A stretch of 64,000 nucleotides of DNA from the NCBI GenBank assembly GCA_947631625.1, contig CANRMA010000002.1, positions 1 through 64,000 on the forward strand. The letters are read 5' to 3'. The DNA is from an uncultured Lachnospiraceae bacterium (GTDB taxonomy: Bacteria; Bacillota; Clostridia; Lachnospirales; Lachnospiraceae). Both the position numbers and the translations under genes were made by a program. Positions 9,159-36,194 of the stretch are shown piece by piece; positions within the stretch are counted from its first letter, which is position 1; each line of letters opens with the position of its first letter. The notes beneath the pieces were generated by a model. That model was not told the DNA's origin. It ran no database searches and worked only from the letters and a program-made list of their open reading frames with translations.

Positions 9159-10136
9159 ATGAGAATTTTAGTAACAGGTTCTGACGGTTTCATAGGAAGT
9201 CATTTAGTAGAAGAATTAGTTAAAAAGGGATACAAAGTTAAGGCTTTTGTGTATTATAACTCCTTTAATACATGGGGGTGGCTTGACACGCTGTCACAAG
9301 ATATTATGGATAACGTTGAGATATTTCAAGGTGACATCCGTGATCCTAACGGAGTTGAAGAAGCAGTAAAAGGAGTGGATGCCATATTTCATCTGGCGGC
9401 ATTGATAGCGATTCCATTTAGTTATCATTCCCCGGATACTTATGTTGATACAAATATAAAAGGAACTCTGAATATATTGCAGGCTGCCAGAAAACAAAAT
9501 ATAAAAAGAGTTCTGATCACATCAACATCAGAGGTATATGGTACGGCACAGTATGTTCCAATAGATGAAAAGCATCCCTTTCAGGGGCAATCACCGTATT
9601 CAGCCACTAAAATAGGGGCGGACAGGTTGGCAGAAAGTTTTTATCGTTCCTTTGGCCTTCCGGTTACAATTGTAAGGCCTTTTAATACTTATGGACCGAG
9701 GCAATCTGCAAGAGCAGTTATACCTACGATAGTTACACAGCTCTTAAGCGGAAATGAGAAAATTAAACTTGGTTCCCTTACGCCTACAAGAGATTTTAAT
9801 TATGTGAAAGATACTGCAAATGGATTTATCGCAATATATGAGTCGGATAAAACGATAGGTGAAGAGATTAATATAGCAACTCAGAAAGAGATCTCAATCG
9901 GAGAATTGGCGGAAGAATTGATAAGGCAGATTAATCCTAAAGCCCAAATTGTGTGTGACGAACAGAGACTTAGACCAGAAAAAAGTGAAGTAAACAGGCT
10001 TTTAGGCTGTAATGAAAAAATTTTGCGCTTGACAGATTGGAAGCCGAGATACACGTTTGAAGAAGGTTTAAGTGAAACAATAGAATTCCTTAAAGAAAAT
10101 TTATATAAATATAAAACGGATATTTACAATTTATGA
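9159..10136 (+). CDS. legB: NAD-dependent nucleotide-sugar 4,6-dehydratase, LegB-like
   Basis: A 325-aa extended SDR enzyme. TGSDGFIG (6-13) binds NAD, TSTSE (121-125) carries the catalytic Ser/Thr-Asp/Glu region and YSATK (147-151) the Tyr-Lys pair. It resembles Campylobacter LegB (Cj1319), which makes the 4-keto-6-deoxy intermediate from GDP-GlcNAc in the legionaminic acid pathway. The nucleotidyltransferase and NeuD/B/C genes that follow support this. First gene of a long co-directional run. Substrate (GDP- or UDP-sugar) is inferred. Confidence 0.78.
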   Translation: MRILVTGSDGFIGSHLVEELVKKGYKVKAFVYYNSFNTWGWLDTLSQDIMDNVEIFQGDIRDPNGVEEAVKGVDAIFHLAALIAIPFSYHSPDTYVDTNIKGTLNILQAARKQNIKRVLITSTSEVYGTAQYVPIDEKHPFQGQSPYSATKIGADRLAESFYRSFGLPVTIVRPFNTYGPRQSARAVIPTIVTQLLSGNEKIKLGSLTPTRDFNYVKDTANGFIAIYESDKTIGEEINIATQKEISIGELAEELIRQINPKAQIVCDEQRLRPEKSEVNRLLGCNEKILRLTDWKPRYTFEEGLSETIEFLKENLYKYKTDIYNL

Positions 10137-10273
10137 TTAATGCGATTATAAATGCATGTAATTTTGATAAATTTTATTCAATATAAAACATATTTAGATA
10201 AAAAATTAATGTGATAATATTCAGAGATGCGGCGGAAACGTAAGATAATTAGGGGAGCAGGTATTAAAACAAT

Positions 10274-11356
10274 ATGGATGCACAATTAAGTGTATTAATC
10301 GATACTTCATTTAATATCATATCCGAAAATGAAAGCTTAAAGATTGCATTGGAGCAGTTGGACAAGGTTATTGTCAAGGTGTTGCTTGTAGTTAATGATG
10401 AAGAAGCTTTTGTTGCTGCGTTGACGGATGGCGATGTCAGAAGAGCGATCTTAGCAGGCGCCTCACTTAAAACACCGGTGTTTCAAGTAGCTAATTATAA
10501 TCCAAAGTATTTGGAAAATGATGATGTAAGTCAGGCAAAGAAGTATTTAGAAAAAATAGCCGCATTGCCAATATTAGATGAGAATGGGAAAATTATAAAG
10601 GTTTACATAAGAGGAATAAATCAACAGCAAAATATCAATGATAGTTTGAATATTCCCATAGTAATCATGGCAGGAGGATTGGGTACGAGATTATACCCTT
10701 ATACAAAAATTTTACCAAAACCACTAATTCCGGTCGCGGACGTTCCTATTGCTGAGAGGATTATACGGTCATTTCAGAAAATAGGCTGTGAAGAATTTTA
10801 TATGATAGTAAATTATAAAAAAAATATGATTAAAGCATATTTTAATGATGCAGATTGCAAGTATAGGCTTAATTTTTGTGATGAAGATAAACCTTTGGGA
10901 ACAGGAGGCGGTCTTAAGCTTCTCAGTGAAAAAATAGATAAAACCTTTGTTTTAACTAATTGTGATATTTTGATTTTGGATGACGTAAGGGAAATCGTAA
11001 AACATCATATAAAATCTAAAAACAAAGTAACAATGGTCTGTTCCTTAAAAAATTTTGAAATACCGTATGGTGTTGTAAATTTCTCAAACGGTGGGGAAAT
11101 AAGTTCCTTTGAAGAAAAGCCCAAAATGTCTTTTTTTACAAATACGGGGTATTACATACTTGAAAAGGAAGTCTTTAAATATATTGAACCTGATGAAGCT
11201 ATAGGTATGCCGGATATAATAGACAGAATGAAAGAAGCAGGAGAAAAAGTTGGAATATATCCGATCGGGGAGAATGCGTGGTTGGATATGGGGCAGTTTG
11301 ATACGATGGAAAGCATGGAAATAAAGTTAAGAGAGATAGGTCCCTATTTATCATAA
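10274..11356 (+). CDS. ptmE: CBS-domain sugar-phosphate nucleotidyltransferase, PtmE-like
   Basis: 360 aa. Residues 1-120 are a pair of CBS motifs (LTDGDVRRAIL; LPILDENGKI) and residues about 128-355 a nucleotidyltransferase with the signature MAGGLGTRLYPYTKILPKPL. This fusion is that of Campylobacter PtmE, the glucosamine-1-phosphate guanylyltransferase feeding GDP-sugars to legionaminic acid synthesis. The CBS pair may sense nucleotides. It starts 137 bases after the dehydratase; AGGGGAG lies somewhat far (about 15 bases) from ATG 10274. Confidence 0.78.
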   Translation: MDAQLSVLIDTSFNIISENESLKIALEQLDKVIVKVLLVVNDEEAFVAALTDGDVRRAILAGASLKTPVFQVANYNPKYLENDDVSQAKKYLEKIAALPILDENGKIIKVYIRGINQQQNINDSLNIPIVIMAGGLGTRLYPYTKILPKPLIPVADVPIAERIIRSFQKIGCEEFYMIVNYKKNMIKAYFNDADCKYRLNFCDEDKPLGTGGGLKLLSEKIDKTFVLTNCDILILDDVREIVKHHIKSKNKVTMVCSLKNFEIPYGVVNFSNGGEISSFEEKPKMSFFTNTGYYILEKEVFKYIEPDEAIGMPDIIDRMKEAGEKVGIYPIGENAWLDMGQFDTMESMEIKLREIGPYLS

Positions 11357-11374
11357 GTCTGGTGGAATTATATT

Positions 11375-12040
11375 ATGGAAAAAATAATTATCTTGGGTCA
11401 GGGCGGACATGCAAAAAGCCTTGTTGATATTATCGAACGTGAACAAAAATATAAGATAGCCGGATATATAGTGAATAATGTGAAGACAGAAAGCGGAAGT
11501 CGCTCAATAAATGATTTGGAGAAGAAGTCAGGTCATTGTCATGTGATTGGCTGTGATGATGATTTGGAAGAAATTTTTCATGGCGGCATTACCAGAGCTG
11601 CCATAGGAATTGGATATATGGGGAAGTCCGATTTGAGAGAAAAATTGTGGAAACGTTTGAAAGATATCGGATTTTCGTTACCTGTCATTTGCGACCCATC
11701 GGCAGTTATTTCAAATCATGCCCGAATAGAAGAGGGCTGTTTTATTGGTAAAGGAGCAATTATAAATTCAGGCGCTTCAATAGGTAAAATGTGCATTATT
11801 AACAGCGGAGCGATTGTTGAGCATGATTGTGTGGTTGAGGACTTTTCACATATATCGGTTGGAAGCGTATTGTGCGGCGGAGTTAAAGTGGGAAAGGCTG
11901 CTTTTATTGGAGCAAATGCAACAGTGATCCAATATAGAAGTATTGGCAGCAATTGTATTATAGGAGCCGGTATGGTAGTAAGAAAAGATATTGAAAATAC
12001 TGAAAATAAAATAAGAGACAGAGTGCAAATTAATGGGTAG
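11375..12040 (+). CDS. NeuD/PglD-family sugar O- or N-acyltransferase
   Basis: 221 aa. An N-terminal Rossmann-like part (IIILGQGGHAKSLVDII, as in PglD) is followed by a left-handed beta-helix of hexapeptide repeats (IGKGAIINSGASIGKMCI). In nonulosonic pathways such enzymes acetylate the 4-amino group of the sugar (LegH) or the final sialic acid (NeuD). It overlaps the synthase gene by 8 bases. Which amine or hydroxyl it modifies cannot be told; with no LegC in the window its exact step is open. Confidence 0.8.
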   Translation: MEKIIILGQGGHAKSLVDIIEREQKYKIAGYIVNNVKTESGSRSINDLEKKSGHCHVIGCDDDLEEIFHGGITRAAIGIGYMGKSDLREKLWKRLKDIGFSLPVICDPSAVISNHARIEEGCFIGKGAIINSGASIGKMCIINSGAIVEHDCVVEDFSHISVGSVLCGGVKVGKAAFIGANATVIQYRSIGSNCIIGAGMVVRKDIENTENKIRDRVQING

Positions 12041-13031
12041 AGTATTTGTTATAGCAGAGGCAGGAGTTAATCATAACGGAGATATTAATATAGCTAAAGA
12101 ACTTGTAGAAAAAGCAGCATCGGCAGGCGCAGATGCGGTTAAATTTCAGACTTTTAAGACGGAAAATCTTGTATGTAGAGATGCTAAGAAGGCAGCATAT
12201 CAATTGGGAACAACAGATAATTCTGAATCACAGTACGAAATGTTAAAAAAATTAGAATTGACCCCAATAATGCATACAGAATTAATATCATATTGTAATA
12301 AAAAAAATATTATGTTTTTGTCTACTCCTTTTGACATAGAAAGCTTGAATTATCTGGTTCAATGTGGAATTGAGATAATCAAGATACCATCGGGTGAGAT
12401 AACTAATTATCCATATTTAAGAGAGATTGGAAGAACGGGCAAGCCTGTAATATTGTCGTCGGGAATGAGTAGATTGGATGAGGTTGATGATGCCATAAAA
12501 GTATTAAGAGATTTTGGCAGTAAAAAAATAACAGTGCTTCACTGTAATACAGAATATCCAACGCCTTATGAAGATGTAAATTTAAGGGCAATGCTGTCTT
12601 TAAAAGATGAATTGGGGGTAGAGGTCGGATATTCTGACCATACACAGGGTATAGAAGTTCCTATTGCGGCTGTTGGGTTGGGGGCGTCAGTAATAGAGAA
12701 GCATTTTACATTAGACAAAAATATGGAAGGTCCGGATCATAAAGCAAGTCTTGAACCAAGTGAATTAAGCGAAATGGTCAAACAGATAAGAAATATTGAG
12801 AAAGCATTAGGAAACGGCATAAAGCGACCTTCAGAATCTGAAAAGAAAAATATGGATATTGTCAGAAAAAGTATTGTTGCAAATTGTTTCATTAAACAAG
12901 GTGATATATATTCTGAGGATAATATTACAACCAAGAGACCCGGTAATGGAATTTCCCCTATGAGGTGGAATGATGTTATCGGTAAAAAGGCAATAAGAAA
13001 CTTTGAACCAGACGAGTTGATTGAATTATGA
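12033..13031 (+). CDS. legI: Nonulosonic (legionaminic/sialic) acid synthase, NeuB family
   Basis: 332 aa. A TIM-barrel NeuB domain (VFVIAEAGVNHNGDINIAKEL at the N-terminus, IKIPSGEI and GYSDHTQG further in) is followed by a C-terminal SAF/antifreeze-like domain (residues about 270-332). It condenses a 6-carbon N-acyl sugar with phosphoenolpyruvate to a 9-carbon keto acid. Length is normal. Its start lies inside the end of the acyltransferase gene and its stop overlaps the next start (ATGA), so translation is coupled. Confidence 0.92.
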   Translation: MGRVFVIAEAGVNHNGDINIAKELVEKAASAGADAVKFQTFKTENLVCRDAKKAAYQLGTTDNSESQYEMLKKLELTPIMHTELISYCNKKNIMFLSTPFDIESLNYLVQCGIEIIKIPSGEITNYPYLREIGRTGKPVILSSGMSRLDEVDDAIKVLRDFGSKKITVLHCNTEYPTPYEDVNLRAMLSLKDELGVEVGYSDHTQGIEVPIAAVGLGASVIEKHFTLDKNMEGPDHKASLEPSELSEMVKQIRNIEKALGNGIKRPSESEKKNMDIVRKSIVANCFIKQGDIYSEDNITTKRPGNGISPMRWNDVIGKKAIRNFEPDELIEL

Positions 13032-14197
13032 AAAAGATATGTATAGTAACCGGAACAAGGGCAGAATACGGATTATTAAAGCCTGTTATTGAAAAAGTAC
13101 ATTTGTCGAAAATTTTGGAATTGCAGTTAGTAGTTACAGGGACGCATTTGTCAAGTGAATTTGGATTAACGTATCATGAAATAGAAAACGATGGTTACCC
13201 GATAAATGCTAAGATTGAGATGCTTCTTAGTTCAGATACGTCTGTGGGAATTACTAAATCAATGGGAGTAGCATTGATCGGTTTTGCAGATTATTTTGAT
13301 ACAAACAAACCTGACATAGTTGTCATATTAGGCGATCGTTATGAAATGCTTGTTGCGGCATCAGCAGCTATGATTGCAAGAATTCCGATTGCTCATATAC
13401 ATGGTGGAGAAAAGACAGAAGGACTTATAGATGAGGCTATACGGCATTCCATAACTAAAATGAGTCATTTGCACTTTACTGCGACGGAAGAATATAGAAA
13501 AAGGGTAATACAACTTGGTGAACAGCCTGATACAGTATATAATGTGGGTTCATTAGGTGTTGAAAATATTAAGACAGTTCAGTTAATGAAAAAAGATGAA
13601 TTAGAATCTGAATTGGATTTTCAATTTACTGATAGTACAATACTTGTTACTTTTCATCCTGTAACTCTGGAAAATTTAACTGCTGAAAATCAGTTTAAAA
13701 ATATTTTGGATGTGATTGATCATCATAAGGATCTTTCAGTGATATTTACGAAAGCTAATGCAGATACGGATGGAAGAATTATAAATAAAATGATAGATGA
13801 GTTTGCAACACTTAATAACGAAAGATGCAAGGCATATACTTCACTTGGACAGCGCAGATATCTGAGCGCGTTGCAGTTTTGTTCCGTTGTTATGGGTAAT
13901 TCATCCAGTGGAATTGTAGAAGTGCCATCTTTTTGTATTCCTACAATAGATATTGGAGACAGGCAAAAAGGAAGAATAGCCGCAGAATCTGTAATACATT
14001 GTGGTAGTAGTGTACAGGAAATTGAATGTGCATTAAATATAGCATTTTCAAAAGAGTTTGATAATAAAGCGCATAATACAAAAAATCCATATGAGGGAGA
14101 ACATACATCGGATAAAATAGTTGAAATTATAGCCAACGCATTGAATATAGGAATTGATTTAAAAAAGAATTTTTATGATATAAGCGTGGAAATATGA
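13028..14197 (+). CDS. legG: Hydrolysing UDP/GDP-HexNAc 2-epimerase, NeuC family (copy 1)
   Basis: 389 aa, GT-B fold epimerase starting TGTRAEYGLLKPVIEKV, with GDRYEML, HIHGGEKTEG and GNSSSGIVEVPS motifs expected for NeuC/LegG. It releases the nucleotide and inverts C2 to give the substrate of the NeuB synthase. Overlaps its neighbours on both sides by 4 bases. It is very similar to the gene at 15762, including stretches of about 100 identical bases, but has no G-tract where that copy has eight Gs. Confidence 0.9.
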   Translation: MKKICIVTGTRAEYGLLKPVIEKVHLSKILELQLVVTGTHLSSEFGLTYHEIENDGYPINAKIEMLLSSDTSVGITKSMGVALIGFADYFDTNKPDIVVILGDRYEMLVAASAAMIARIPIAHIHGGEKTEGLIDEAIRHSITKMSHLHFTATEEYRKRVIQLGEQPDTVYNVGSLGVENIKTVQLMKKDELESELDFQFTDSTILVTFHPVTLENLTAENQFKNILDVIDHHKDLSVIFTKANADTDGRIINKMIDEFATLNNERCKAYTSLGQRRYLSALQFCSVVMGNSSSGIVEVPSFCIPTIDIGDRQKGRIAAESVIHCGSSVQEIECALNIAFSKEFDNKAHNTKNPYEGEHTSDKIVEIIANALNIGIDLKKNFYDISVEI

Positions 14198-15761: not shown

Positions 15762-16925
15762 ATGAAAAAAGTATGTGTAGTTACAGGAACTAGATCTGAA
15801 TATGGTCTACTAAAACCGTTAATTGATAAAATTTATAGATCAGAGCAGTTTGATCTGCAATTATTTGTGACAGGCGCGCATTTGTCTAGTGAATTTGGAT
15901 TAACATACCAAGAAATAGAGAAGGATCAGTATCCGGTTTGTAAAAAAATAGAAATGCTGCTTAGTTCGGATACTACAGTTGGAATTACTAAATCGGGGGG
16001 GGTACAACTGATAAGTTTTGCAGATGCATATGAAGAATGCAAACCTGACATAGTTGTCATATTAGGCGATCGTTATGAAATGCTTGTTGCGGCATCAGCA
16101 GCTATGATTGCAAGAATTCCGATTGCGCATATACATGGTGGAGAAAAGACTGAGGGTGCAATCGATGAAGCAATAAGGCATTCTATTACTAAGATGAGTC
16201 ATTTGCATTTTGCGGCGACAGAGGAATATAGGAAGAGGATAATACAACTTGGTGAGCAGCCTGATGCAGTATACAATGTTGGTTCATTAGGTGTAGAAAA
16301 TATCAAAACAGTACAGTTAATGAAAAAAGATGAATTAGAATGTAAATTGGATTTTCAATTTACAGATAATACAATACTTGTTACTTTTCATCCTGTAACT
16401 CTGGAAAACTTAACTGCTGAAAAGCAGTTTAAAAATATTTTGGATGTGATTGACCGCCATAAGGAGCTTTCAGTGATATTTACGAAAGCTAATGCAGATA
16501 CGGATGGAAGAATTATAAATAAAATGATAGATGAGTTTGTAGCGCTTAATAACGAAAGGTGCAAGGCATATACTTCGCTTGGACAGCAAAGATATCTTAG
16601 CGCGTTACAGTTTTGTTCCGTTGTTATGGGTAATTCATCCAGTGGAATTATAGAAGTACCATCCTTTGGTATTCCTACAATAAATGTTGGGGACAGACAA
16701 AAAGGAAGAGCGTGTGCAAAATCTGTAATACACTGTGGAAATAGTAGCAATGAGATTGATAATGCATTGAATATAGCTTTGTCTAAAGAATTTCGAAATA
16801 AGCTTGCTGATGTTAAAAATCCATATGAAAAGACAGGAACTTCTGATGCGATTATAGAAATGATTTGGTATGCGCTTGAACGTGGAATTGAAATGAAGAA
16901 AAAATTTTATGATATTAGTTTTTAG
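15762..16925 (+). CDS. Hydrolysing HexNAc 2-epimerase, NeuC family (copy 2), with G8 tract
   Basis: 387 aa, close paralogue of the gene at 13028: same TGTRSEYGLLKPL start, GDRYEML, HIHGGEKTEG and GNSSSGIIEVPS motifs. Differences cluster in the first 85 and last 60 residues, so it may act on a different sugar. A run of eight G (15995-16002) encodes part of KSGGVQ, where copy 1 has KSMGVA; the tract is in frame here. It probably supplies a second nonulosonic acid, or the deacetylated/formylated variant. Confidence 0.88.
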   Translation: MKKVCVVTGTRSEYGLLKPLIDKIYRSEQFDLQLFVTGAHLSSEFGLTYQEIEKDQYPVCKKIEMLLSSDTTVGITKSGGVQLISFADAYEECKPDIVVILGDRYEMLVAASAAMIARIPIAHIHGGEKTEGAIDEAIRHSITKMSHLHFAATEEYRKRIIQLGEQPDAVYNVGSLGVENIKTVQLMKKDELECKLDFQFTDNTILVTFHPVTLENLTAEKQFKNILDVIDRHKELSVIFTKANADTDGRIINKMIDEFVALNNERCKAYTSLGQQRYLSALQFCSVVMGNSSSGIIEVPSFGIPTINVGDRQKGRACAKSVIHCGNSSNEIDNALNIALSKEFRNKLADVKNPYEKTGTSDAIIEMIWYALERGIEMKKKFYDISF

Positions 16926-19836: not shown

Positions 19837-20868
19837 ATGAGTGCATTAAAAGAAAAATATAATGAATATTTTAATTATGATGTTTCTCTTACACCTAAGT
19901 TTCCGAAAGTATTACTTTTGGAAGTAACAAATTTATGTAATCATAGTTGTGTGTTTTGTACCCACTGTAAGATGACGAGACGCAAAGGATTTATAAATGA
20001 AGAATTGGCCTATAGGCTTCTGGAAGAGGCATATAATGAAGGTTCCAGAGAAGTGGGGTTTTATATGATGGGTGAACCATTGCTTGATAAAAACTTAGAA
20101 AAGTATATTAAATATGCAAAAGATTTAGGTTATTCATATACTTTCATTACCACAAATGGTCTTTTATTTAATTATAATAGGATGGTCTCTATAATAGAAT
20201 CAGGATTGGACAGTATTAAGTTTAGCTTTAATGGCGGGGATAGGGAACATTATTTGTTTGCACATGGATCAGATTGTTATGAAGAGGTAAAGAATAATAT
20301 AATTACCCTGTCTAATTATAGAAAAGAGAATGGTTGTAATATTAAGATTTATATGAGTTGTATATTGACAAGATATACAAAAAATGATGGTAAAAAAATA
20401 ATCAAAACATTTTCGCCATTTGTTGATGATATTTTTATTAATGAATGTATTAAAACAGGGGGGGCAAATGCAGAAATAGAAGATACTGTATGTATAGAAG
20501 GAAAAGCAATGAGTAAATCGATACAGGATGGTATTTGTTTCTTTCCATTTAATAGGGTGCATGTTACATATGAGGGCTATTTAACATTATGCTGTCAAGA
20601 TTTAGAGAATTATTTAATTATTGAAGATTTGAACAAGATGTCTTTAAAGGAAGCATGGAATTCGGAGAGATTTCAAAGAATACGTAAGAGACATATTGAT
20701 GGGAATTTGGAAGGAACGTTATGTTATAACTGCCTTAACAATGCTAATGAGTCTGTTAAGCCGTTAGCTGAAGAATATGCTGGTTATTTGTCTGAAAATT
20801 CAGAGGTGAGAAGACAAATTATTCAATCAAGGATTGAGAAATTGTTAGATTCAGTTTCAAATGCATAG
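19837..20868 (+). CDS. Radical SAM/SPASM protein (1)
   Basis: 343 aa. The cluster motif is C34-x3-C38-x2-C41 (CNHSCVFC), followed by GEPLLDKNL. C-terminal cysteines in LCCQD and LCYNCLNN fit a SPASM or twitch domain holding an auxiliary Fe-S cluster. GGAGGTAGG lies just before ATG 19837. A run of seven G (20458-20464) encodes TGGAN in frame. Proteins of this type in glycan clusters modify sugars or peptides by radical chemistry; the substrate is unknown. The 139-bp gap upstream shows no feature. Confidence 0.82.
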   Translation: MSALKEKYNEYFNYDVSLTPKFPKVLLLEVTNLCNHSCVFCTHCKMTRRKGFINEELAYRLLEEAYNEGSREVGFYMMGEPLLDKNLEKYIKYAKDLGYSYTFITTNGLLFNYNRMVSIIESGLDSIKFSFNGGDREHYLFAHGSDCYEEVKNNIITLSNYRKENGCNIKIYMSCILTRYTKNDGKKIIKTFSPFVDDIFINECIKTGGANAEIEDTVCIEGKAMSKSIQDGICFFPFNRVHVTYEGYLTLCCQDLENYLIIEDLNKMSLKEAWNSERFQRIRKRHIDGNLEGTLCYNCLNNANESVKPLAEEYAGYLSENSEVRRQIIQSRIEKLLDSVSNA

Positions 20869-25054: not shown

Positions 25055-25072
25055 GGTCAGGAGATCTGTAAA

Positions 25073-26002
25073 ATGAAATCAGCTATTGTCTCAGGCGCGT
25101 CAGGATTTGTTGGGAAAAGATTGATAGAAATATTATTAAAAAATGATATTAATGTTTTAGCGTTATATAGGAATATAAGTAGAGAAATATATTCAAATCC
25201 TCAGTATGGGAAAAAGCTTAAATGTATATCAATAGATGATCTTGAGCATATTGAAGATATAGAGAATAATATTCATGAAAAGATAGATGTATTTTATCAT
25301 TTTGCATGGAAAGGCATAAAAGGCGCAGAGTTATATGATCCGATCACACAAATTGAAAATAGCAGTATTTTAATTAAATGTATGCAGCTTGCCGCAAATT
25401 TGGGATGTAAAAAATTTGTTGGTGCGGGCAGTATTTCACAGTATGAGAATATTTACAAACAAAATGTATATGTTCTAGAGGATAGGAGCAGATATTACAG
25501 ATCATGTAAAAATCTTTGCGAAAAGCTTGGATTAGAATATGCACAAGAATTAGGATTAGAATTTATATGGCCGATTATTACTAACATGTATGGACCTGGT
25601 GAAAGAAATACTGAACGTTTAATTTACAATATTATAAATAATTTAATTAATAATAAAGTAATGGATGTTAGTGAAGGCAGACAGTTATATGATTTTGTAT
25701 ATATAGATGACGCTGCTATGGCGTTTTATTTAATAGGTATGAAAGGTAAAGCAAATAGAAATTATGTTATAGGTAGTGGAAATGTGAAACCACTTCGAGA
25801 GTGGCTTGAGCAAATTCCTGCCATTTTAGGCGGTTATGGGGAAATCAATTTTAGTAAATTACCATATAAAGGCGCATTTTTGCCTGAGGAATGTTTTGAT
25901 ATTACAAATTTAGTAGATGATGTGGGATATATTCCCAAAGTTTCTTTTAAAGAAGGAATTATGTGTACAGCTGAGTATATGGAGAAAATAAATTATGAAT
26001 AG
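25073..26002 (+). CDS. SDR-family nucleotide-sugar reductase/epimerase
   Basis: 309 aa extended SDR with intact SGASGFVG (7-14), GAGSISQYE serine motif and YRSCK catalytic pair. VMDVSEGRQLYDFVYIDD is shared with its neighbour at 24125; the pair is a tandem duplication. It probably reduces or epimerises the 4-keto group of the CDP-3,6-dideoxyhexose or its branched derivative. Overlaps the following gene by 8 bases. Stereochemistry cannot be predicted. Confidence 0.78.
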   Translation: MKSAIVSGASGFVGKRLIEILLKNDINVLALYRNISREIYSNPQYGKKLKCISIDDLEHIEDIENNIHEKIDVFYHFAWKGIKGAELYDPITQIENSSILIKCMQLAANLGCKKFVGAGSISQYENIYKQNVYVLEDRSRYYRSCKNLCEKLGLEYAQELGLEFIWPIITNMYGPGERNTERLIYNIINNLINNKVMDVSEGRQLYDFVYIDDAAMAFYLIGMKGKANRNYVIGSGNVKPLREWLEQIPAILGGYGEINFSKLPYKGAFLPEECFDITNLVDDVGYIPKVSFKEGIMCTAEYMEKINYE

Positions 26003-27032
26003 CATAGTTAATGAAGATATAAAAAGCATTGTATTATCAGAATGTAACTGGGATATGTTTCGTGGATGTAATATTTTGATTACAGGTGCAACTGGTTTGA
26101 TTGCACACTATATGGTGCTTGCTTTATTAATGAGGAATGATTTATTTGATGATAAGATAAAAGTTATTGCTTTATGCCGGAATAGGAACAAAGCAGAGGC
26201 TTTATATAAAGAAAATTTTAAAAGAAATGATCTGACTTTCTTATTTCAAGATGTGACTGAAGATATAGTGTATGATGAAGCGATAGACTATATAATACAT
26301 GCAGCAAGTCCTGCTAATACATATATGCATGTTAATGACCCGTATGGAACAGTTTCTGCTAATGTAAATGGATTTCAAAATATATTGGAGAAATCTCGAA
26401 AAGATAAAGTAAGGAAAATTATGTTGTTTAGTTCTTATATGGTGTACGGTCCGCAAGCATCATCACATCCTTTATCTGAAAATGATGCCTGTGTAGTAAA
26501 TATTGGAAAAGCTGTAGATGTTTATTCTATAAGTAAACTTTTATGTGAAGCAATGGCAAAATCATCAGGAAAGAGCGTTGATATAGTCAGACCTTCATTG
26601 ATATATGGACCAGGCATAACAGCATCTTCAAAGCGACATTTTTCGGATTTTATATTAAAATGTATAAATAATGAGCCAATTAAGTTAATGAGCTCGGGAA
26701 AGATGCTTCGTAATTATTTGTATGTTTCTGATGCTGTTAAAGCTTTTTTTCAAGTATTGTTATCAGATAGAGAAGCAGATACTTATAATGTAGTGTCTGA
26801 TTCTACAATAAGTGTGTTACAGTTGGCACAGATTATGGCAAAACAAAGTAATTTAGATATTATTTTTGATATAGAAAATCAGAAGGATTATCATAATGCA
26901 ACATATAATATGGTTAGCGCAGATAACAGTAAAATTAAACAGTTGGGATGGACACAGAAAATCGCAATTGAAGAAGGTGTTCAAAGAACAATAAATTGGG
27001 CAAGAAACGAAAAATTTTTTGTAAAATGGTAA
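25995..27032 (+). CDS. NAD-dependent epimerase/dehydratase (SDR)
   Basis: 345 aa extended SDR with an N-terminal 30-residue extension before the cofactor motif ITGATGLIAHYM (so TGATGLIA, last Gly replaced by Ala), FSSYMVYG serine motif and YSISK catalytic pair. Its tandem paralogue at 27060 is about half identical by eye. A third relative is at 46699. Function is probably epimerisation or reduction of a CDP- or other nucleotide-sugar. Confidence 0.78.
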   Translation: MNSIVNEDIKSIVLSECNWDMFRGCNILITGATGLIAHYMVLALLMRNDLFDDKIKVIALCRNRNKAEALYKENFKRNDLTFLFQDVTEDIVYDEAIDYIIHAASPANTYMHVNDPYGTVSANVNGFQNILEKSRKDKVRKIMLFSSYMVYGPQASSHPLSENDACVVNIGKAVDVYSISKLLCEAMAKSSGKSVDIVRPSLIYGPGITASSKRHFSDFILKCINNEPIKLMSSGKMLRNYLYVSDAVKAFFQVLLSDREADTYNVVSDSTISVLQLAQIMAKQSNLDIIFDIENQKDYHNATYNMVSADNSKIKQLGWTQKIAIEEGVQRTINWARNEKFFVKW

Positions 27033-27059: not shown

Positions 27060-28101
27060 TTGAACAATATAGTTAGAGAAGATATTGAAAATATTATTAA
27101 TATGAAACTTGAATGGGGCAAGTTAAAGGGTAAGAATGTTTTGGTTACCGGTGCAACGGGATATTTGGCCCATTATATGATACTTACTATGCTTATGAGA
27201 AATGAGATGTTTGACAATCAAATAGGTGTTATTGCATTGTGCAGGAGCAGGGAAAAGGCAAAAGCATTATATAAAGATAAATTTAATAGAGATGATATAA
27301 CCTTTTTATTTCAAGACGTAACTGAAGATATAAATTATCCGGAGAAAATAGATTTTTTTATACATATGGCAAGTCCTGCTAATCCAAATGCGTTTACAGT
27401 TAGCCCTTGGGATGTGGTTTCTGCTAACATAAATGGTTTTGGAAAAGTGTTAGAGCGGGCGAAGAAGGATATGTCAGAAAGAATAATGTTGTTTAGTTCT
27501 AATGCAGTGTATGGAATGTGGTCGTTAGAGAACCCGCCTAAAGAAACGGATGATTGTGTGGTTCAACTTGATAACAGCAGAGACATATATGCTATTAGTA
27601 AGTTAGTATGTGAAACTATGGCAAAAGAAGAACAAGAATATTTAGATATTGTAATTGTAAGACCTTCTGTAATATATGGCCCGGGTGCTGTAGCATCGCA
27701 AAAAAAGCATTTTACGGATTTTGTAATGAACTGTATCAATAGAGAGCCAATTAGGTTATTGAGTGAAGGAAAAGTATATCGCAATATTTTATATATTTTA
27801 GATGCTGTTGCAGGCTTTTTCTATGTTTTATTAAAGGGGGGGGGCAGATACTTACAATGTTGCTGCTGATACAAGCATTAGTGTTTTACAATTAGCTAAA
27901 ATAATAGCCAAACAAAGAAATTTGGAAATTAAGTTTGATTTAAAAAAACAGGAAACTTATCATAAAGATGCTTATAGTGTAGTAAATGCGGATAACAGTC
28001 ATTTAAAGCAATTGGGTTGGAAACCGACTGTTCCTGTAGAAGAAGGCTTGCGTAGAATGATTGAATGGGCAGAAAATGATGATTATTTTAAAAACTGGTA
28101 A
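27060..28101 (+). pseudogene. NAD-dependent epimerase/dehydratase, OFF by a G9 tract
   Basis: Paralogue of the preceding SDR (TGATGYLA motif, FSSNAVYG, YAISK). TTG 27060 is the start, after AAAGGAG. The frame closes at 27869 because of nine G at 27836-27844; removing one G continues as LLKGGADTYNVAAD, aligned with ADTYNVVSD of the neighbour, and on to TAA 28099-28101 for a full-length protein of about 346 aa. All downstream sequence is intact, so this looks like a reversible OFF state or a homopolymer miscount, not decay. Confidence 0.85.
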
Positions 28102-28103: not shown

Positions 28104-29198
28104 ATGAAAAAAATAGATGAACTCAAAGGATTTTATAAACATAAAAAAATATTAATTACAGGTAATACAGGCTTTAAGGGTACTTGGATGACTTTAGTGT
28201 TAGAAATGATGGAAGCTGATATATATGGTTTTGCATTACCTAGTGGGAACCCATATGTTTCAGATACCTTTTATCAAAATATAAATCCTGATATAGCTGG
28301 TATTTTTTATGGTGACATATCGGATTATAAATGTTTAAAAAAGGTTGTTGATTTATCTTGCCCTGATATAATTTTTCATTTAGCGTCTCATTCATCTTTA
28401 AATCATAGTATGGATTTGCCTCATTGGATATTGCAGACAAATTTAATGGGAGCGCTTAATGTTTTAGAGGCAGCAAGAAATCAAACAAGTGTTAAAGCTG
28501 TAGTAGTAGTAACAAGCGATAAAGTATATAGAAATATGGACATGGATACAAAATATTCTGAGGAAAGTCCATTGGGAGGAAATGATCCATATTCTACAAG
28601 TAAAATATGTCAGGAATTATTAGCAAAGTGTTATTATCATAATTTTAATAATTATAATTTGGCAACAGCTCGTGCAAGTAATGTATTGGGACCGGGAGAT
28701 TATAATATTACCAGACTGTTTCCATATTTGGTAGACTGCTTAAGTCATGGGGAAGTACCTCAAATACGCAATCCGTATTCCATTAGATCATGGCAGTCGG
28801 TATTGGATGTTATAATAGGATATTTAATGTTGGGAAAATATTTGTATGAACATGACATCAATCATGACATTAAAAATGATATATCATATAATTTTGGACC
28901 TAATGAAGATGGATTTGTTACAGTCGCAGAGATGGTAAATATGGTATGTAAAGAGTTTGGATTGGAAAGGTATTTGGTGAATGACCTTCCGGGTCATATA
29001 CAGCATGAGGCAAAAATTTTAAAATTAAACAGTGATAAAGCGTATAAGGTATTGGGATGGAAACCCCTTAATACGCTTTATGAAAGTGTACATCAGAGTA
29101 TTGAGATGATAAAACAAGAGCAAGAAGGAATGGATTTACGACTTATTACAGGTAGTTATGTTAAAGAATATATAGAAAAATGGGAGAATTGTGAATGA
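28104..29198 (+). CDS. rfbG: CDP-glucose 4,6-dehydratase
   Basis: 364 aa extended SDR. TGNTGFKGTW (19-28) is the characteristic NAD motif of RfbG; VTSDKVY and YSTSK (163-167) form the active site. It converts CDP-glucose to CDP-4-keto-6-deoxyglucose, the substrate of RfbH. It starts 2 bases after the repaired end of the SDR gene, so a frameshift there could reduce its coupled translation. Stop overlaps the next ATG by 4 bases. Confidence 0.94.
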   Translation: MKKIDELKGFYKHKKILITGNTGFKGTWMTLVLEMMEADIYGFALPSGNPYVSDTFYQNINPDIAGIFYGDISDYKCLKKVVDLSCPDIIFHLASHSSLNHSMDLPHWILQTNLMGALNVLEAARNQTSVKAVVVVTSDKVYRNMDMDTKYSEESPLGGNDPYSTSKICQELLAKCYYHNFNNYNLATARASNVLGPGDYNITRLFPYLVDCLSHGEVPQIRNPYSIRSWQSVLDVIIGYLMLGKYLYEHDINHDIKNDISYNFGPNEDGFVTVAEMVNMVCKEFGLERYLVNDLPGHIQHEAKILKLNSDKAYKVLGWKPLNTLYESVHQSIEMIKQEQEGMDLRLITGSYVKEYIEKWENCE

Positions 29199-30931
29199 CG
29201 GTATCGGAATACATTTTTGAATTTTTGTACAAAAAAGGATGTAAAACTGTTTTTTTGGTATCAGGAAGTTCAGCTATGTGGCTGACAGACGCATTATGCA
29301 GAAATGATGATTTAAAAGCAATCTGCTGTCATCATGAGCAGGCGGCAGCTATGTCCGCAGACGGATATGGGAGAATTCATGGAGATGTCCCAGGTTGCTG
29401 TCTTGTAACAATAGGACCAGGCGCTACTAATGCAATTACGGGAGTTGCACAGGCATATCTTGATTCTTCGCCAATGTTTGTTATTTCAGGACAGGCTAAT
29501 TCTCGTTTATTAGATTATGAAATAAAAACAGGAATTCGTCAGCATGGCACACAAAGTTTAAATTTGGAGCCGATTGTAACACCAATCACTAAATATTTTG
29601 CCGCGGTAATGGATCCTGCAGATATAAGAATACATATGGAAAAAGCATATCATTATGCAATAACGGGACGTAAGGGGCCGGTATGGATCGATGTGCCTGT
29701 TGACATTCAGAATAAGCAGGTGCCGGAAGAGATGGATGGATATAATATTTTACAAGAAAGTAATGCGTATGATGTTGATTATCAAAATATAGCCAAAATT
29801 GTGTTGGAAGCTAAGAAGCCTCTTATATTGGCAGGATATGGAGTGAGATGTAGTCAGGCAGTTGAAGAACTTAAAGAGTTGAGCAGAAAAATACAGGCGC
29901 CGATAGTAACTTCAAGAGGAGGAATTGACGTTATTACGTCCGATAGCGAATGGTTTGTAGGAAGGCCGGGCGCTTATGGAGATAGGGCATCACATTTTGC
30001 GATTCAGCAATGCGATTTGCTTTTGATAATGGGTAGCAGACTCTCAGTTTCTACAATAGGATATTATCCACGGAAACTTGCGCAAAATGCTGTTAAAATA
30101 ATGGTAGATATTGATGAAAAAGAACTTTCAAAAGAAGATGTGCCTATAGACTATAAATATAATATTGATATAAAAGAATTTATTACGACTTTGTTGGATA
30201 ATATTACTGAAACTGTTTCGGAAGAGCGGCGAATTTGGAAAATGCACTGTTTTGATATGCGTATGAAGTATCCGAATGTAAAACCTGAGTACAAAAAAGA
30301 GATGCCGCTTAATGAGTATTGGGTTACAAAGAAATTGTCAGATTTAGTAAGCGGACAGGCTAATATTATTGTTGATACAGGAAGTGTGTGCAATATAGTG
30401 TCTCAAAGTTGGCGACTTAAAGAAGGACAGAGATATCTTATATCCGGGGGATTGTCATGCATGGGGTTTTGGGCAACAGCAATGGGAGCATATCAGGATA
30501 AACGTCAATTAATTGCTATAACCGGAGATGGCAGTGCGCAGATGAATATACAGGAGCTTGCAACTATTGATTATAATAATATCCCCTTAAAACTTTTTGT
30601 TTACAATAACAATGGTTATATGTTGATAAGGCATAATCAGCATAATTATATGAATGACCGTTTTTTAGGTGTTGGTCCGGATAGTGGGCTGAAAACACCG
30701 GATTTTTGCAAGGTTGCAGAGGCTTACGGAGTTAAAGCTGTAAGGATAGAAAGTGAAGAAGAAATGGATGAAAAAATGCAGGAGGTGCTAAGTGCAAATG
30801 AACCGGTACTGTGTGAGATTATCGTTCAGGAGTTTGCGCCTATTGAACCTAGAATTGCGTCTAAAGTTATGCCGGATGGGTCTTTAAAAGCTGCAGAATT
30901 TGATGATTTATATCCATTTTTAGAACAGTAA
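29195..30931 (+). CDS. Thiamine-diphosphate-dependent carboligase, acetolactate-synthase-like (YerE-like)
   Basis: 578 aa with the three-domain plan of the family: N-terminal Pyr domain with activating Glu48 (HHEQAA), middle domain, and C-terminal PP domain with GDGSAQMN (from 444) and the NN after it. Located next to RfbF/G/H, it resembles YerE of Yersinia, which adds a two-carbon unit from pyruvate to C4 of a CDP-3,6-dideoxy-4-ketosugar to give yersiniose. A plain acetolactate synthase is unlikely here. The donor and acceptor are inferred from context. Confidence 0.8.
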   Translation: MTVSEYIFEFLYKKGCKTVFLVSGSSAMWLTDALCRNDDLKAICCHHEQAAAMSADGYGRIHGDVPGCCLVTIGPGATNAITGVAQAYLDSSPMFVISGQANSRLLDYEIKTGIRQHGTQSLNLEPIVTPITKYFAAVMDPADIRIHMEKAYHYAITGRKGPVWIDVPVDIQNKQVPEEMDGYNILQESNAYDVDYQNIAKIVLEAKKPLILAGYGVRCSQAVEELKELSRKIQAPIVTSRGGIDVITSDSEWFVGRPGAYGDRASHFAIQQCDLLLIMGSRLSVSTIGYYPRKLAQNAVKIMVDIDEKELSKEDVPIDYKYNIDIKEFITTLLDNITETVSEERRIWKMHCFDMRMKYPNVKPEYKKEMPLNEYWVTKKLSDLVSGQANIIVDTGSVCNIVSQSWRLKEGQRYLISGGLSCMGFWATAMGAYQDKRQLIAITGDGSAQMNIQELATIDYNNIPLKLFVYNNNGYMLIRHNQHNYMNDRFLGVGPDSGLKTPDFCKVAEAYGVKAVRIESEEEMDEKMQEVLSANEPVLCEIIVQEFAPIEPRIASKVMPDGSLKAAEFDDLYPFLEQ

Positions 30932-32119: not shown

Positions 32120-33625
32120 ATGTTAAATACCGTTTTAGATTATTTAATTCAAAGCTATAAATCATACCCGGATAAGCCCGCGCTAATATATTCAGAACGG
32201 GAAATGACATATGGGCAACTATATTTATCGGCAGTAAATACTGCCGGATGGATTAACGAAAATATAGGATGTGTCAGGCAGCCGGTTATAGTAATGATGA
32301 AAAATTCTGATAAGGCGGTGGCGGCTTTTCTGGGAGTTGCGCTGAGTGGAAATATCTATGTGCCCATAGATTCTGATATGCCGGAGGACAGGCTCAGGGT
32401 TATCATTGATATTTTAAATCCTCGGTGCGTTATTAATTGTGAAGATGATATCATATCAGATATGTTTGAATGTCCTGTTATTTCTTATGATGAAATACAG
32501 AATCATGACTTTGTACAGGAAAATGTTTTAAAACTTAAAGAAAGTATTATTGATACAGATCCGTTGTATATCCTGTTTACATCAGGTTCCACCGGGGTTC
32601 CCAAAGGTGTGGTGGTCAGCCATAGAGCGGTCATTGATTTTACGGAAGAAGCATCCGAAAAAATGGAGTTTAGCAAAAATGAAATCTTTTTAAACCAGGC
32701 TCCATTTTATTTTGATGCTTCAGTGCCGGATATATTCTGTACAATAAGAAACGGGGCAACATTACATATAGTGGATAAGAGTCTGTTCGCTTTTCCAATT
32801 AAAATTGTTGACTATATTAGTCAAAATAATATAAACGCTATATATTGGGTACCGTCTGCATTGGTAACTGTAGCCAATATGAAAGTATTAGGAAAGCGTG
32901 ATATTTCCTGCCTCAAAAAGATTATGTTCTGCGGAGAGGTCATGCCTGCAAAACAGTTAAATATGTGGATGAAGGCAGTACCGGAAGCCAAATATGTTAA
33001 TTATTACGGGCCATGTGAAGCGACGTATGCATGCAGCTATTATATTATAGACAGACATTTTGAGGATGATGAACCCCTGCCTATAGGGAAGGCAGCAAAA
33101 AATACAGCATTGATGATAATTAATGACAATAAAGAGGTTTTAAGTTCGAGGGGGGGGCTAATTGGAGAAATATATATCCGCGGTTCAGGACTTGCCTTGG
33201 GATACTACAATAACCCTGAAAAAACAAAAGAAAATTTTGTTCAGAATCCTCTTAATTCATTATATCCGGAAACAGTATATAAAACCGGGGATCTGGCGCA
33301 CTATGATGAGGAAGGGAATATAATTTATGACGGAAGATGTGATTATCAGATAAAGCATATGGGCTATCGTATCGAATTGGGTGAAATTGAGACCTGTGTA
33401 GGAGCCATTGAAAAAGTGAACCAGACAGCCTGTATTTATATTAAGTCAAAAGAAATGATAATCTGCTATTATAGCGGAATGGTTTCAGAGAATGAAATTG
33501 TTGATGTATTAAAGAGAAAGCTGCCGTTTTATATGATTCCTAAAAAGATTATTAAGATGGATTCGCTTCCAATGAATATGAATGGAAAGATTGACAGGAA
33601 AAAATTAGAAAGTAACTGGAGTTAA
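32120..33625 (+). CDS. Amino-acid/acyl adenylation enzyme (DltA/NRPS A-domain type), with G8 tract
   Basis: 501 aa stand-alone adenylation enzyme. Core motifs in order: FTSGSTGVPKGV (A3), NYYGPCEAT (A5), KTGDLAHYDEEGNI (A7), MGYRIELGEIE (A8) and MNGKIDRKKL with the catalytic A10 lysine. It should activate a carboxylic acid, probably an amino acid, with ATP and load the carrier protein at 34697. Eight G at 33150-33157 encode SRGGL and are in frame. Similar A-domains drive D-alanylation and glycan acylation. The substrate cannot be read off. Confidence 0.88.
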   Translation: MLNTVLDYLIQSYKSYPDKPALIYSEREMTYGQLYLSAVNTAGWINENIGCVRQPVIVMMKNSDKAVAAFLGVALSGNIYVPIDSDMPEDRLRVIIDILNPRCVINCEDDIISDMFECPVISYDEIQNHDFVQENVLKLKESIIDTDPLYILFTSGSTGVPKGVVVSHRAVIDFTEEASEKMEFSKNEIFLNQAPFYFDASVPDIFCTIRNGATLHIVDKSLFAFPIKIVDYISQNNINAIYWVPSALVTVANMKVLGKRDISCLKKIMFCGEVMPAKQLNMWMKAVPEAKYVNYYGPCEATYACSYYIIDRHFEDDEPLPIGKAAKNTALMIINDNKEVLSSRGGLIGEIYIRGSGLALGYYNNPEKTKENFVQNPLNSLYPETVYKTGDLAHYDEEGNIIYDGRCDYQIKHMGYRIELGEIETCVGAIEKVNQTACIYIKSKEMIICYYSGMVSENEIVDVLKRKLPFYMIPKKIIKMDSLPMNMNGKIDRKKLESNWS

Positions 33626-33628: not shown

Positions 33629-34667
33629 ATGAAAAATATAGACACAATTTATCTGACTGAGAGAAATGATGTCAATAGTGATGGAAGCATGATTTGTTTT
33701 GATCCGTCTTATGTAAAATACGGGAAAGAATCATGGAATTCTTTAACAAAACTTATTAAAGAAAATGATATTAATACTGTTATGGGGAGTAAAAATGATA
33801 TTAATATCATAAGCAGACTGCTTTGGGAATGCGGCAGCTTGGAACGATATGTACTAACTGATGCAGATGAAGGGTTTCAGATCGAAAGTATAAACGACAG
33901 GCGGACTAAACTTCGTTGGGATATGGTAGCGAATAAGGCAAAAGAAGATGACAGCATAGAACAATCCGGATGGGTGAGCAGTTTTACGGGTGAAGTATTT
34001 TCCGAAAAAGAAATGGACGAGTTTACGGAAAATATATACTTTAAACTAAGGAATTTTTGTAATAAATCGTCCAAAGTACTGGAGATAGGTATCGCTTCGG
34101 GGCTGACAGGATTTAAGATAGCGCCGTTAGTAAATACATATATAGGGGTAGATTTATCCGAGGCAACGCTCACTCGTACAGGTAAGGCATTGGAAAAACG
34201 TGGAATAAGTAATGTGAAACTGGTCGCGGGGGGGGGCGATTCAGGTAGATGAACTGGGATTTAACGATATAGATATCATAATAATAAACAGTGTTGCACA
34301 GTATTTTCCGGGATATAATTATTTTATTGAAGTAATAAGAAGATGCGTTAAATGTCTCTCAACTAACGGGATAATATTTGCCGGGGACATTATGGATCTC
34401 GATAAAAAAAATGAATTTATGAATGTGCTTAGTCGAAGCGGAGGAAAATCAAGTATAGAAGATCTCTGGTATCCTAAGAAATTTATAAACGAAGTTCCTG
34501 CATACATATCAGAGATATATAAAACAGAAATAAGTGAAAAAGAGAAATATACAATTAAAAACGAGATGAATCAGTTTAGGTATGATGTTATTTATTATGT
34601 AGATAAGAATACAAGTAATAGCATAGCAAAGACAAAGTTGGAATTTGGGAGAAATTATGTAAACTAA
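33629..34667 (+). pseudogene. SAM-dependent methyltransferase, OFF by a G9 tract
   Basis: The first frame (to 34252) contains VLEIGIASGLTGFKIAP, motif I of class I methyltransferases, and VGVDLSEATL-like motif II. Nine G at 34228-34236 shift it to a stop. Removing one G continues as VAGGAIQVDELGFNDID and then INSVAQYFPGYNYF, through to TAA at 34665-34667, about 345 aa. NSVAQYFPG is typical of methyltransferase domains found in NRPS modules. It lies between the adenylation and carrier genes, so it may methylate a carrier-bound residue. Phase-variable or a miscount. Confidence 0.82.
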
Positions 34668-34696
34668 AAGAAGTTTACATAATACAAGCGAAAGGC

Positions 34697-34939
34697 ATGG
34701 ATATAAAAATGAAGACGGAACTCGAAAACATATTAATGGAGTGTGGAATTGAAAAGGATGATTTAAACTGTCAGGATTTTATTAAAGCCGGGGTAATGGA
34801 TTCTATGATGGTGGCAGATATTGTAATTGCCATAGAAGATAGATTCTGTATAGAGATTGATGGGGAAGATATAGTGCCGGAATGGTTTGTTAATATTTTA
34901 ACAATAGAAGAGTTGGTAAATAAATATAAGAATATATAA
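34697..34939 (+). CDS. Acyl/peptidyl carrier protein
   Basis: 80 aa. AGVMDSMMVADIV places Ser36 in the DS(M/L) phosphopantetheine site; the acidic four-helix pattern and length are typical. It should carry the acid activated by the enzyme at 32120. It follows the methyltransferase by 29 bases and precedes a possible acyltransferase. A free-standing carrier with its own adenylation enzyme is the DltA-DltC arrangement. Confidence 0.88.
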   Translation: MDIKMKTELENILMECGIEKDDLNCQDFIKAGVMDSMMVADIVIAIEDRFCIEIDGEDIVPEWFVNILTIEELVNKYKNI

Positions 34940-34970
34940 ACGAAATAATATAAAATAAAAAGGTAAAACT

Positions 34971-36194
34971 ATGTTAGACTTATTGGCAAAGGTTGGCAAT
35001 AGAAGAATAATACTGTGGGGAACTGGCAATACGGGTAATGCGTTTTATGAAAAATATAGAAATGATCTTGATATATATGCGTGTACTTGTAATGAAAAGG
35101 AATTTAAATCCATCGCCGGTTTAAAAACCATACAATGGGATGAGATTGACAGGCAGATTGATTTTATTATTGTCTGCAGTATATATTATGAAGAAATAAG
35201 AAGACAGTTGATGGTAAGAGGTTTTGAGGTAAATGTTGATTTTATAAAATTTGATATATTTGAAGAACTTTATGAAGGTTTCAGGGAAAACAAAAAGTTA
35301 ATATTAGCGATAGGCCAATGCGAAATACGTGAAATGATTACAGCGTTAAAACGCCTTAAAAACTTTAAGAAATATTATTCAATGATATATTATAATGAGC
35401 GTGGTATTTGTGAGCATGGAGATTTGTTTGACTGGACCCTGTTAAAAGAGTTTATGAATATTATAGGTATGGCTGACTATATTATGCTGCCTTCTGCAAT
35501 AAGCCCTCAGGCAAAGTATGATTTTCAGTATATAAAAAGTTTTATAGGTGATAAGTGTAGTGTTATCACAATATCTTTATTTAATTTTGACAGTTATTGG
35601 CCTCAGGATATAGCAAGGGAACGGTCCGTAAACAAATATTACATGATGCAAAAAAATATGAAATTACCTGCATATGTGGAAAGAGATCAGGTAATAGAAA
35701 AATTAGTTGATGAAAATTATTCTGTGAAGAAGATTATGGAATTAATTTCCAAAGAAGATTATTTTAAAAAAGAAGACGTAATGATGAATCATCAAAATTC
35801 ACTAAAACGATTCAGGCTGACGGACAGATTATCAGATGTTAAAATTGGTGATTTTATTGAAAGTAATTATAATTTAGTAAAATTATATTGTGACAGAGGT
35901 CATTTTAATCAGAATTTACTTAGAGAATATGTACGAAGAATTTTGAACTATTTAGGTGCCAATGAAAGCTTGGTTGAATTACAGAATATGGATTTTGAGG
36001 ATATGTTTATGAGAATAAATGAACTTCCTATTTATCCAAGTACGGCTGCCATTCTAAACCTTGAGTGGATAAACAGAGGTACTCTTTACAGACAACATTT
36101 GTACAGTGGCATCAGAACTGTGACATTTGAAGAATATATGGAAACATTTATAGAGTATTGTTTTGCAGTGAAGAAGACATTACAATTTTGTTAG
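34971..36194 (+). CDS. N-terminal Rossmann module plus WcbI-like domain
   Basis: 407 aa. Residues 1-100 are the small nucleotide-binding module (IILWGTGNTGNAFYEKY) that recurs in block B. From about residue 110 the sequence LAIGQCEIREM, later FNFDSYWPQ and DRGHFNQNLLREY, resembles WcbI-type polysaccharide enzymes, which bind CoA and are thought to acylate sugars. Placed after the carrier protein, it is the best candidate to move the acyl group to the glycan. The WcbI assignment is tentative. Confidence 0.55.
   Translation: MLDLLAKVGNRRIILWGTGNTGNAFYEKYRNDLDIYACTCNEKEFKSIAGLKTIQWDEIDRQIDFIIVCSIYYEEIRRQLMVRGFEVNVDFIKFDIFEELYEGFRENKKLILAIGQCEIREMITALKRLKNFKKYYSMIYYNERGICEHGDLFDWTLLKEFMNIIGMADYIMLPSAISPQAKYDFQYIKSFIGDKCSVITISLFNFDSYWPQDIARERSVNKYYMMQKNMKLPAYVERDQVIEKLVDENYSVKKIMELISKEDYFKKEDVMMNHQNSLKRFRLTDRLSDVKIGDFIESNYNLVKLYCDRGHFNQNLLREYVRRILNYLGANESLVELQNMDFEDMFMRINELPIYPSTAAILNLEWINRGTLYRQHLYSGIRTVTFEEYMETFIEYCFAVKKTLQFC

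Follow-up and report, generated by a model that had tools for sequence, protein, structure and literature searches.

Runs of consecutive G residues (poly-G tracts) serve as contingency loci for phase variation in several bacteria. Five G runs are considered here in the DNA of an uncultured Lachnospiraceae bacterium, within a stretch of 64,000 nucleotides (the window; GenBank assembly GCA_947631625.1, contig CANRMA010000002.1, positions 1 to 64,000), together with similar runs elsewhere in that genome, its genus and its family. The nearest described counterparts are the tracts of Campylobacter. In the excerpts available from one account (PMC8355987), those of C. jejuni are mostly G9 and G10 (Gn being a run of n Gs, and Gn+ a run of at least n), a distribution that results from opposing insertion and deletion biases. 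According to the same excerpts, the phase-variable repertoire comprises 18-39 genes per C. jejuni strain and >50 in two other Campylobacter species, and functional mismatch repair is lacking in C. jejuni.

Set beside those excerpts, the tracts of the Lachnospiraceae genome and its relatives are similar in being both intragenic and intergenic, in occurring with flagellar and surface-glycan genes and in the size of the repertoire (28 G8+ runs here and up to 95 in the genus), and G9 is the dominant length in one relative, G072. They differ from the Campylobacter tracts in phylum, in the presence of a full-length MutS1 gene and in a range of targets that includes pectate lyases and solute-binding lipoproteins.

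A pilus of the gut commensal Bifidobacterium breve is turned ON and OFF by a G tract, the slippage of which was analysed by maximum depth sequencing (excerpts of PMC9187656), so that poly-G switching in commensals as such is already known. As far as those excerpts extend, the tracts described here resemble the B. breve switch in their occurrence in a probable gut commensal and in the placement of a G tract such that it divides a surface protein into signal and body. B. breve belongs to the Actinobacteria, and the strain in question has two pilus clusters, whereas dozens of tracts are found here. Stochastic switching in gut bacteria is also achieved by the invertible promoters of Clostridioides difficile and gut commensals, which in the part of the report available (PMC11868660) use site-specific recombination rather than the slippage proposed here.

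Among the open-access matches listed, none described poly-G variation at multiple loci in Lachnospiraceae, with subscription papers and bioRxiv preprints outside the scope of the search. In the original prediction for this DNA, such variation was not known to have been described for gut Clostridia; this stands for the Lachnospiraceae within those matches, but a G-tract pilus switch is on record for the commensal B. breve (PMC9187656). The mechanism is already known, and the lineage and the scale are apparently new. The tracts very probably form a genus-wide, multi-locus poly-G phase-variation repertoire, or set of contingency loci, in Lachnospiraceae that are probably commensals.

Excess of long G runs

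The counts of G runs in the window's own genome are two-humped, with 113 G6 and six G7 runs followed by 18 G8, eight G9 and two G10 runs. A tail driven by composition would keep dropping past G7, but the observed counts climb again, so that the genome-wide excess is decisive, and the tracts exceed the compositional prediction in both length and number. In 33 of 34 G7+ runs, it is the strand of positive local GC skew that carries the Gs. Base composition as a cause of the G8+ runs was ruled out by the comparisons of G6 with G8+ counts.

The scan of the whole genome for G7+ runs, suggested along with the original prediction, yields 34 runs, 28 of them G8+. Only five of the 34, and four of the 28, lie in the window, which argues against the earlier idea that the glycan island located there is specially governed by tracts. 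All five tracts proposed for the window are present (Table 1), with lengths of G8, G7, G9, G8 and G9. Two additional G6 runs lie at 7584 and 31272, and C runs of at least six are absent from the plus strand of the window.

Chance expectation for the window was estimated from 200 simulated sequences of 64 kb for each Markov order from 1 to 4, with runs masked during training. The five G7+ runs observed compare with simulated means of 2.06, 0.64, 1.03 and 0.42 for orders 1 to 4 (maxima 7, 4, 5 and 2), and the four G8+ runs with means of 0.52, 0.19, 0.18 and 0.09 (maxima 5, 2, 2 and 2). Synonymous codons were also shuffled within 36 open reading frames (ORFs) of the window, which gave a mean of 0.5 and a maximum of 4 in 300 shuffles, compared to the five runs observed.

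Distribution in the genus and family

The samples comprised 77 genomes of the genus and 397 of the family, with one genome per species. At least one G8+ run is present in 76 of the 77 genus genomes and at least 20 in 39 of them; eight have more G8+ than G6 runs, and the maximum is 95 G8+. Tract-poor members also occur, with no G8+ run in G042 and two in G041 despite 145 G6 runs. Across the genus, the number of G8+ runs hardly tracks that of G6 runs (Spearman 0.21, p 0.07). With tract-rich and nearly tract-free species in one genus, the two groups can be contrasted in their host range, their exposure to phage and their diet.

The pattern is most pronounced in G072, in which 12 G6 runs are accompanied by 70 G8+ runs (seven G8, 53 G9, nine G10 and one G11). 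By a crude open-frame rule, 25 of these tracts are in frame and 11 are not, and the other 34 receive no label. Four tandem paralogues of this genome (L155, L156) share the same short leader and start and carry G9, G8, G9 and G9 about ten codons in; they are open for 14, 650, 13 and 492 codons, respectively, and the one that was scanned is a WG-repeat protein. At another place in G072 (L148, L149), a G9 plus one C and a G8 plus two Cs are each followed by nearly the same downstream sequence (97% over 199 bases).

In the family, G8+ runs occur in 351 of 397 genomes. As counted from the table, at least 20 are found in 22 genomes, three of which belong to the genus of the window, and two genomes chosen for having no G8+ run hold 273 and 131 G6 runs. 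The 121 G8+ runs of G370 stand beside 1979 G6 runs and look compositional. A genome of another genus, G221 (L278, L279; 1.6 Mb, 68% complete), holds 214 G8+ and 183 G6 runs. High G8+ counts elsewhere in the family are therefore not all of the same kind as the pattern of the genus, and G221 is a different phenomenon.

Host genes of the tracts

Outside the window, the hosts of intragenic G8+ runs in the same genome include two pectate-lyase proteins, a GDSL esterase, a transglutaminase-like protein with two tracts, a subtilase, an RCC1-repeat protein, an acyltransferase, a solute-binding lipoprotein and four proteins without a Pfam match. Two BspA-type repeat proteins also carry G8+ runs, both out of frame. 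Other G8+ runs lie upstream of genes for a giant secreted protein, a chemoreceptor, a prepilin peptidase, an HNH-domain protein and a flagellin-type protein. The last of these (L036) has a flagellin N-terminal domain and a tract nine bases 5' of its start codon; at 1645 residues it far exceeds the usual length of flagellins. In the transglutaminase-like surface gene (L033), the two tracts are a G9 in the leader and a G8 in the coding region.

Secreted or flagellin-type proteins of more than 1000 amino acids, assigned to this class by hand, are found in or behind 11 of 28 G8+ runs and none of 20 G6 control sites (Fisher p 0.001). The control comprises the 20 sites analysed with Pfam among 23 inspected out of 113, taken from the first 100 listed and viewed in stretches of 3 kb; three control frames, for an asparagine synthase, DUF6937/6938 and a phosphoglucomutase by Pfam, overran the ends of their stretches. 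The control sites fall in hosts of various kinds, among them pyruvate kinase, asparagine synthase, phosphoglucomutase, CheR, an ABC transporter and a family 5 glycosidase. A preference of the tracts for surface and envelope genes is found, and the enrichment expected for surface genes as a whole holds for the giant secreted and flagellin-type class.

Several tracts fall in flexible linkers shortly after signal peptides or lipoboxes, and the runs might accordingly be real without being switches, serving instead as poly-glycine linkers, as a product of GGG codon preference or as structural elements such as hairpins. A hairpin upstream of the prepilin-peptidase gene, in this genome and in relatives, is in keeping with such a role, as are the in-frame runs of G221. 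By a narrow margin, however, GGG is the least used of the glycine codons in the ORFs of the window (113 of 781), tracts in promoter spacers code for nothing, and neither the frame breaks at tracts nor the differing lengths between homologues would follow from a linker or a structural element. We regard this explanation as very unlikely.

Promoter spacers

In the porA-type promoters of Neisseria, a poly-G tract lies in the spacer between the -35 and -10 hexamers. A similar arrangement is seen in the window's own genome, where a G9 lies in TTGACA-19-TATAAT ahead of a giant secreted protein (C11:46620) and a G8 in TTGATT-18-TATAAT ahead of the HNH-domain protein (C1:55289). These are two of four promoter-like matches; the other two are in coding sequence and probably due to chance. 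Across the genus, the pattern gives 37 matches in 25 of 77 genomes, compared to three for the reversed pattern. It fits 11 of the 70 tracts of G072, for which shuffling gives a mean of 0.64 and a maximum of 4 in 1000. The nine best G072 spacers are exactly 16 or 19 bases long and the two weakest are 17, a point of difference from the Neisseria promoters, and the effect on expression is a prediction.

Tracts in ORFs, promoter spacers and leaders occupy positions at which a change of one base can alter expression. The exceptions are upstream tracts without an assigned role and a single antisense tract. The latter is a G8 opposite a long ORF (C4:143160; L038 near 14992), with its Gs on the GC-skew-positive rather than the coding strand.

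Frame breaks at tracts

Under a strict rule, 4 of 21 coding G/C runs of at least eight in the own-genome loci examined lie at a frame break, compared to 2 of 102 A/T runs of at least seven (p 0.008) and none of nine G6 runs, so the breaks do not reflect general homopolymer noise. The length excess, the positions and the frame breaks support the earlier suggestion that the tracts look like contingency loci.

The out-of-frame tracts could also be produced by sequencing or assembly errors at homopolymers, given that sequencing is difficult across long runs of G and that the genome, 81% complete in 30 contigs, is probably a metagenome-assembled genome. Errors of this type alter a length by one and do not make long G runs or an excess over G7. 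Of the 102 coding A/T runs of those loci, the other 100 keep the frame, and the pattern is found again in other genomes, which leaves errors a highly improbable cause.

Long homopolymers can cause transcriptional or ribosomal slippage, and the downstream frame is open in both out-of-frame genes of the window. The tracts could thus act at the level of RNA, giving a fixed mixture of frames from a single DNA length. Action of this kind leaves unexplained both the tracts in promoter spacers and the differences in DNA length between otherwise identical loci, and its likelihood is slight in the extreme.

Length differences between relatives

Length polymorphism among relatives is found at a few loci, between species and outside the five window tracts. 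The comparison covered 207 tracts, with flanks of less than 40 bases excluded and 32 of the 33 G046 tracts included (C89 omitted). Upstream of the prepilin-peptidase gene, three genomes that are identical at 400 of 400 flanking bases have G9, G8 and G8. Runs of G8 to G12 are present in eight of 30 loci of this type, and the remaining 22 have no run above G5. Since the tract lies within a hairpin, it is evidence of instability, not of function. The poly-G hairpin is found at L178 and in relatives at L194, L196, L197, L200, L203, L205 and L207; other hairpins occur near the site in some relatives without poly-G.

Between G045 and G046, two of eight homologous tract pairs are unequal. One lies in the gene for a protein that by sequence is a solute-binding-type lipoprotein, with G11 in one genome and G9 in the other, and the signal peptide and body are in different frames in both; the second pair has G10 and G11.

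Mismatch repair

Full-length MutS1 (TIGR01070 above its cut-off) is encoded in 74 of the 77 genus genomes, including that of the window. The three without MutS1 above the cut-off (G021, G053 and G064) are each 66-68% complete. Loss of mismatch repair as the cause of the tracts is not supported, given that MutS1 is above the cut-off in all nine genomes of the block with the highest counts (G065-G073). The absence of functional mismatch repair that goes with a Campylobacter-type phasome is therefore not seen, as judged from the MutS1 gene sequence.

Proposed mechanism and evidence against it

In the mechanism proposed for these contingency loci, the polymerase would slip on runs of at least eight Gs, with the gain or loss of single bases. 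In genes, slippage would shift the reading frame; ahead of genes, it would alter the spacing between -35 and -10 hexamers or the leader. The predicted outcome is ON/OFF or graded expression, such that each cell would stochastically express a subset of the target genes, namely those for envelope glycan enzymes, giant secreted proteins, flagellin, binding proteins and polysaccharide-degrading enzymes. At least four of the window tracts would act on one glycan island, with two out of frame in the assembled genome. Length change within a population would be rapid and reversible, and the surface glycan would presumably change with it. The 16 or more surface forms proposed earlier are a prediction from independent switching of the tracts. 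Annotation of gut bacteria of this kind from single genomes may then call switched-off surface genes pseudogenes.

A broader proposition, on which the evidence is evenly balanced, is that very large poly-G repertoires (up to 95 G8+) occur in a genus of gut commensal Clostridia that have a mismatch-repair gene, with targets that go beyond surface glycans, giant adhesins and flagellin to polysaccharide-degrading enzymes and solute-binding proteins. If this is true, bet-hedging covers nutrition as well as evasion of the immune system or phage.

Several observations weigh against phase variation by slippage. The analysis is based on assembled genomes, one per species, in which slippage itself is unobserved, and the presence of a MutS1 gene should lower the slippage rate. 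The improbability of the window by itself is moderate, in that a few low-order simulations match the observed counts; the earlier statement that the tracts are not expected from base composition is thus borne out decisively for the genome and to a moderate degree for the window. Runs of G7 are no more than the tail end of what chance produces, which makes the 20458 tract a weak case for a contingency locus.

Not all hosts are surface proteins: G8+ runs also involve a response regulator, an ABC ATPase, a radical-SAM-like protein (a match below the cut-off, and out of frame) and the HNH-domain protein behind a promoter tract. The G6 control likewise includes envelope and motility genes (a MurJ/MatE-type flippase, WecG, FlgG and PilM), so that only the giant-protein class is clearly enriched. 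In G221, seven of ten inspected G8-G9 runs keep the frame of genes for enzymes or parts of transporters, with hosts that include RecJ, nicotinate phosphoribosyltransferase, DUF711 and a PLP enzyme that we take to be TrpB.

Evidence from relatives is also mixed. The poly-G that precedes the prepilin-peptidase gene is predicted to form a strong hairpin together with a C-rich arm and may be structural, and six of the eight G045/G046 pairs are equal in length. No G or C run of at least eight was found for the AMP-ligase tract (33150) in four of four relative loci of about 21.5 kb, and the run at 15995 is absent at that place from all four NeuC relatives found by motif among 30 loci. Switching of the gene at 15762..16925 could be masked by the adjoining tract-free paralogue, to which it is 81% identical, and the gene is possibly redundant.

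The glycan island of the window

The island genes and their tracts are collected in Table 1. The earlier assignment of the tracts to glycan genes of four branches is upheld, with nonulosonic acid, CDP-sugar, AMP-ligase and methyltransferase-like genes among the Pfam and NCBIfam matches.

Table 1. Genes of the glycan island and the G7+ runs within them; at every run the plus strand is the coding strand
Coordinates	Strand	Feature	G run	Basis or remark
9159..14197	+	Nonulosonic-acid genes: LegB-type dehydratase, nucleotidyltransferase with CBS, NeuD/PglD acetyltransferase, NeuB-family synthase, NeuC-family 2-epimerase		Pfam, NCBIfam
15762..16925	+	Second NeuC-family 2-epimerase	G8, 15995-16002, in frame	81% identical to 13028-14197; Pfam, NCBIfam
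19837..20868	+	Radical SAM/SPASM enzyme	G7, 20458-20464, in frame; weak candidate	Pfam
21981..27032	+	CDP-sugar branch: RfbH-type dehydratase, glucose-1-phosphate cytidylyltransferase, three NAD-dependent epimerase/dehydratases		Pfam, NCBIfam
27060..28098	+	NAD-dependent epimerase/dehydratase, broken into two frames	G9, 27836-27844, at the frame junction	Out of frame in assembly
29195..30931	+	ThDP-dependent enzyme resembling acetolactate synthase		No NCBIfam model above cut-off among best 25 of 51
32120..33625	+	AMP-binding adenylate-forming ligase	G8, 33150-33157, in frame	Pfam
33629..34664	+	Methyltransferase-like gene, broken into two frames	G9, 34228-34236, at the frame junction	Out of frame in assembly
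34971..51585	+	Remaining glycan region: WcbI, 853-residue protein without Pfam match, polysialyltransferase-like, family 2 and family 1 glycosyltransferases, RgpF, IspD-like cytidylyltransferase, epimerase, LicD, DUF4422	No run of at least seven Gs	

Of the two genes broken at a G9, the epimerase/dehydratase has an upstream piece that matches GDP_Man_Dehyd positions 1-237 and Epimerase 1-227 (Pfam), and a downstream piece in the other frame with a weak match to GDP_Man_Dehyd 281-332 (E 0.0038, under the curated cut-off). The upstream piece of the methyltransferase-like gene covers the first half of Methyltransf_25 (1-53 of 97), also under the curated cut-off; its downstream piece has no Pfam match, and the next frame is open to 34664.

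Above the NCBIfam cut-offs are TIGR04180 LegB, TIGR03570 NeuD, TIGR03569 NeuB and TIGR03568 NeuC in the nonulosonic-acid genes, and NF011936 RfbH and TIGR02623 in the CDP-sugar branch. Parts of a legionaminic-acid pathway are thus present (LegB, LegH/NeuD, LegG/NeuC and LegI/NeuB, with the synthase passing the NeuB model). The LegC model is passed by none of the ten island proteins scanned with NCBIfam, in a search limited to window proteins, and the sole DegT-type protein among 40 window proteins fits RfbH (720.7 bits; 173.4 for LegC, with a cut-off of 420). The nonulosonic-acid set is therefore not a complete textbook legionaminic pathway. The ThDP-dependent enzyme may have a yersiniose-type branched-sugar role. 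Further island genes encode a formyltransferase, a deacetylase and oxidoreductases. For the AMP-ligase, the closest match with a name is 67% and carries the label Lachnospiraceae bacterium. As predicted from these genes, the product fits an envelope polysaccharide, with a flagellar glycan as a possible alternative.

At the place of the 15995 tract, the tract-free neighbouring paralogue has TCAATGGGAGTA (ATG GGA) and the tract gene has TCGGGGGGGGTA (GGG GGG). The two are of equal length, so that the tract differs by substitutions and the frame is kept. Runs of at least eight occur in three of the other 29 NeuC loci, none of them at the aligned place in the four compared. In two relatives (L095, L096), a G10 lies at homologous places near, though not inside, a NeuC-family gene.

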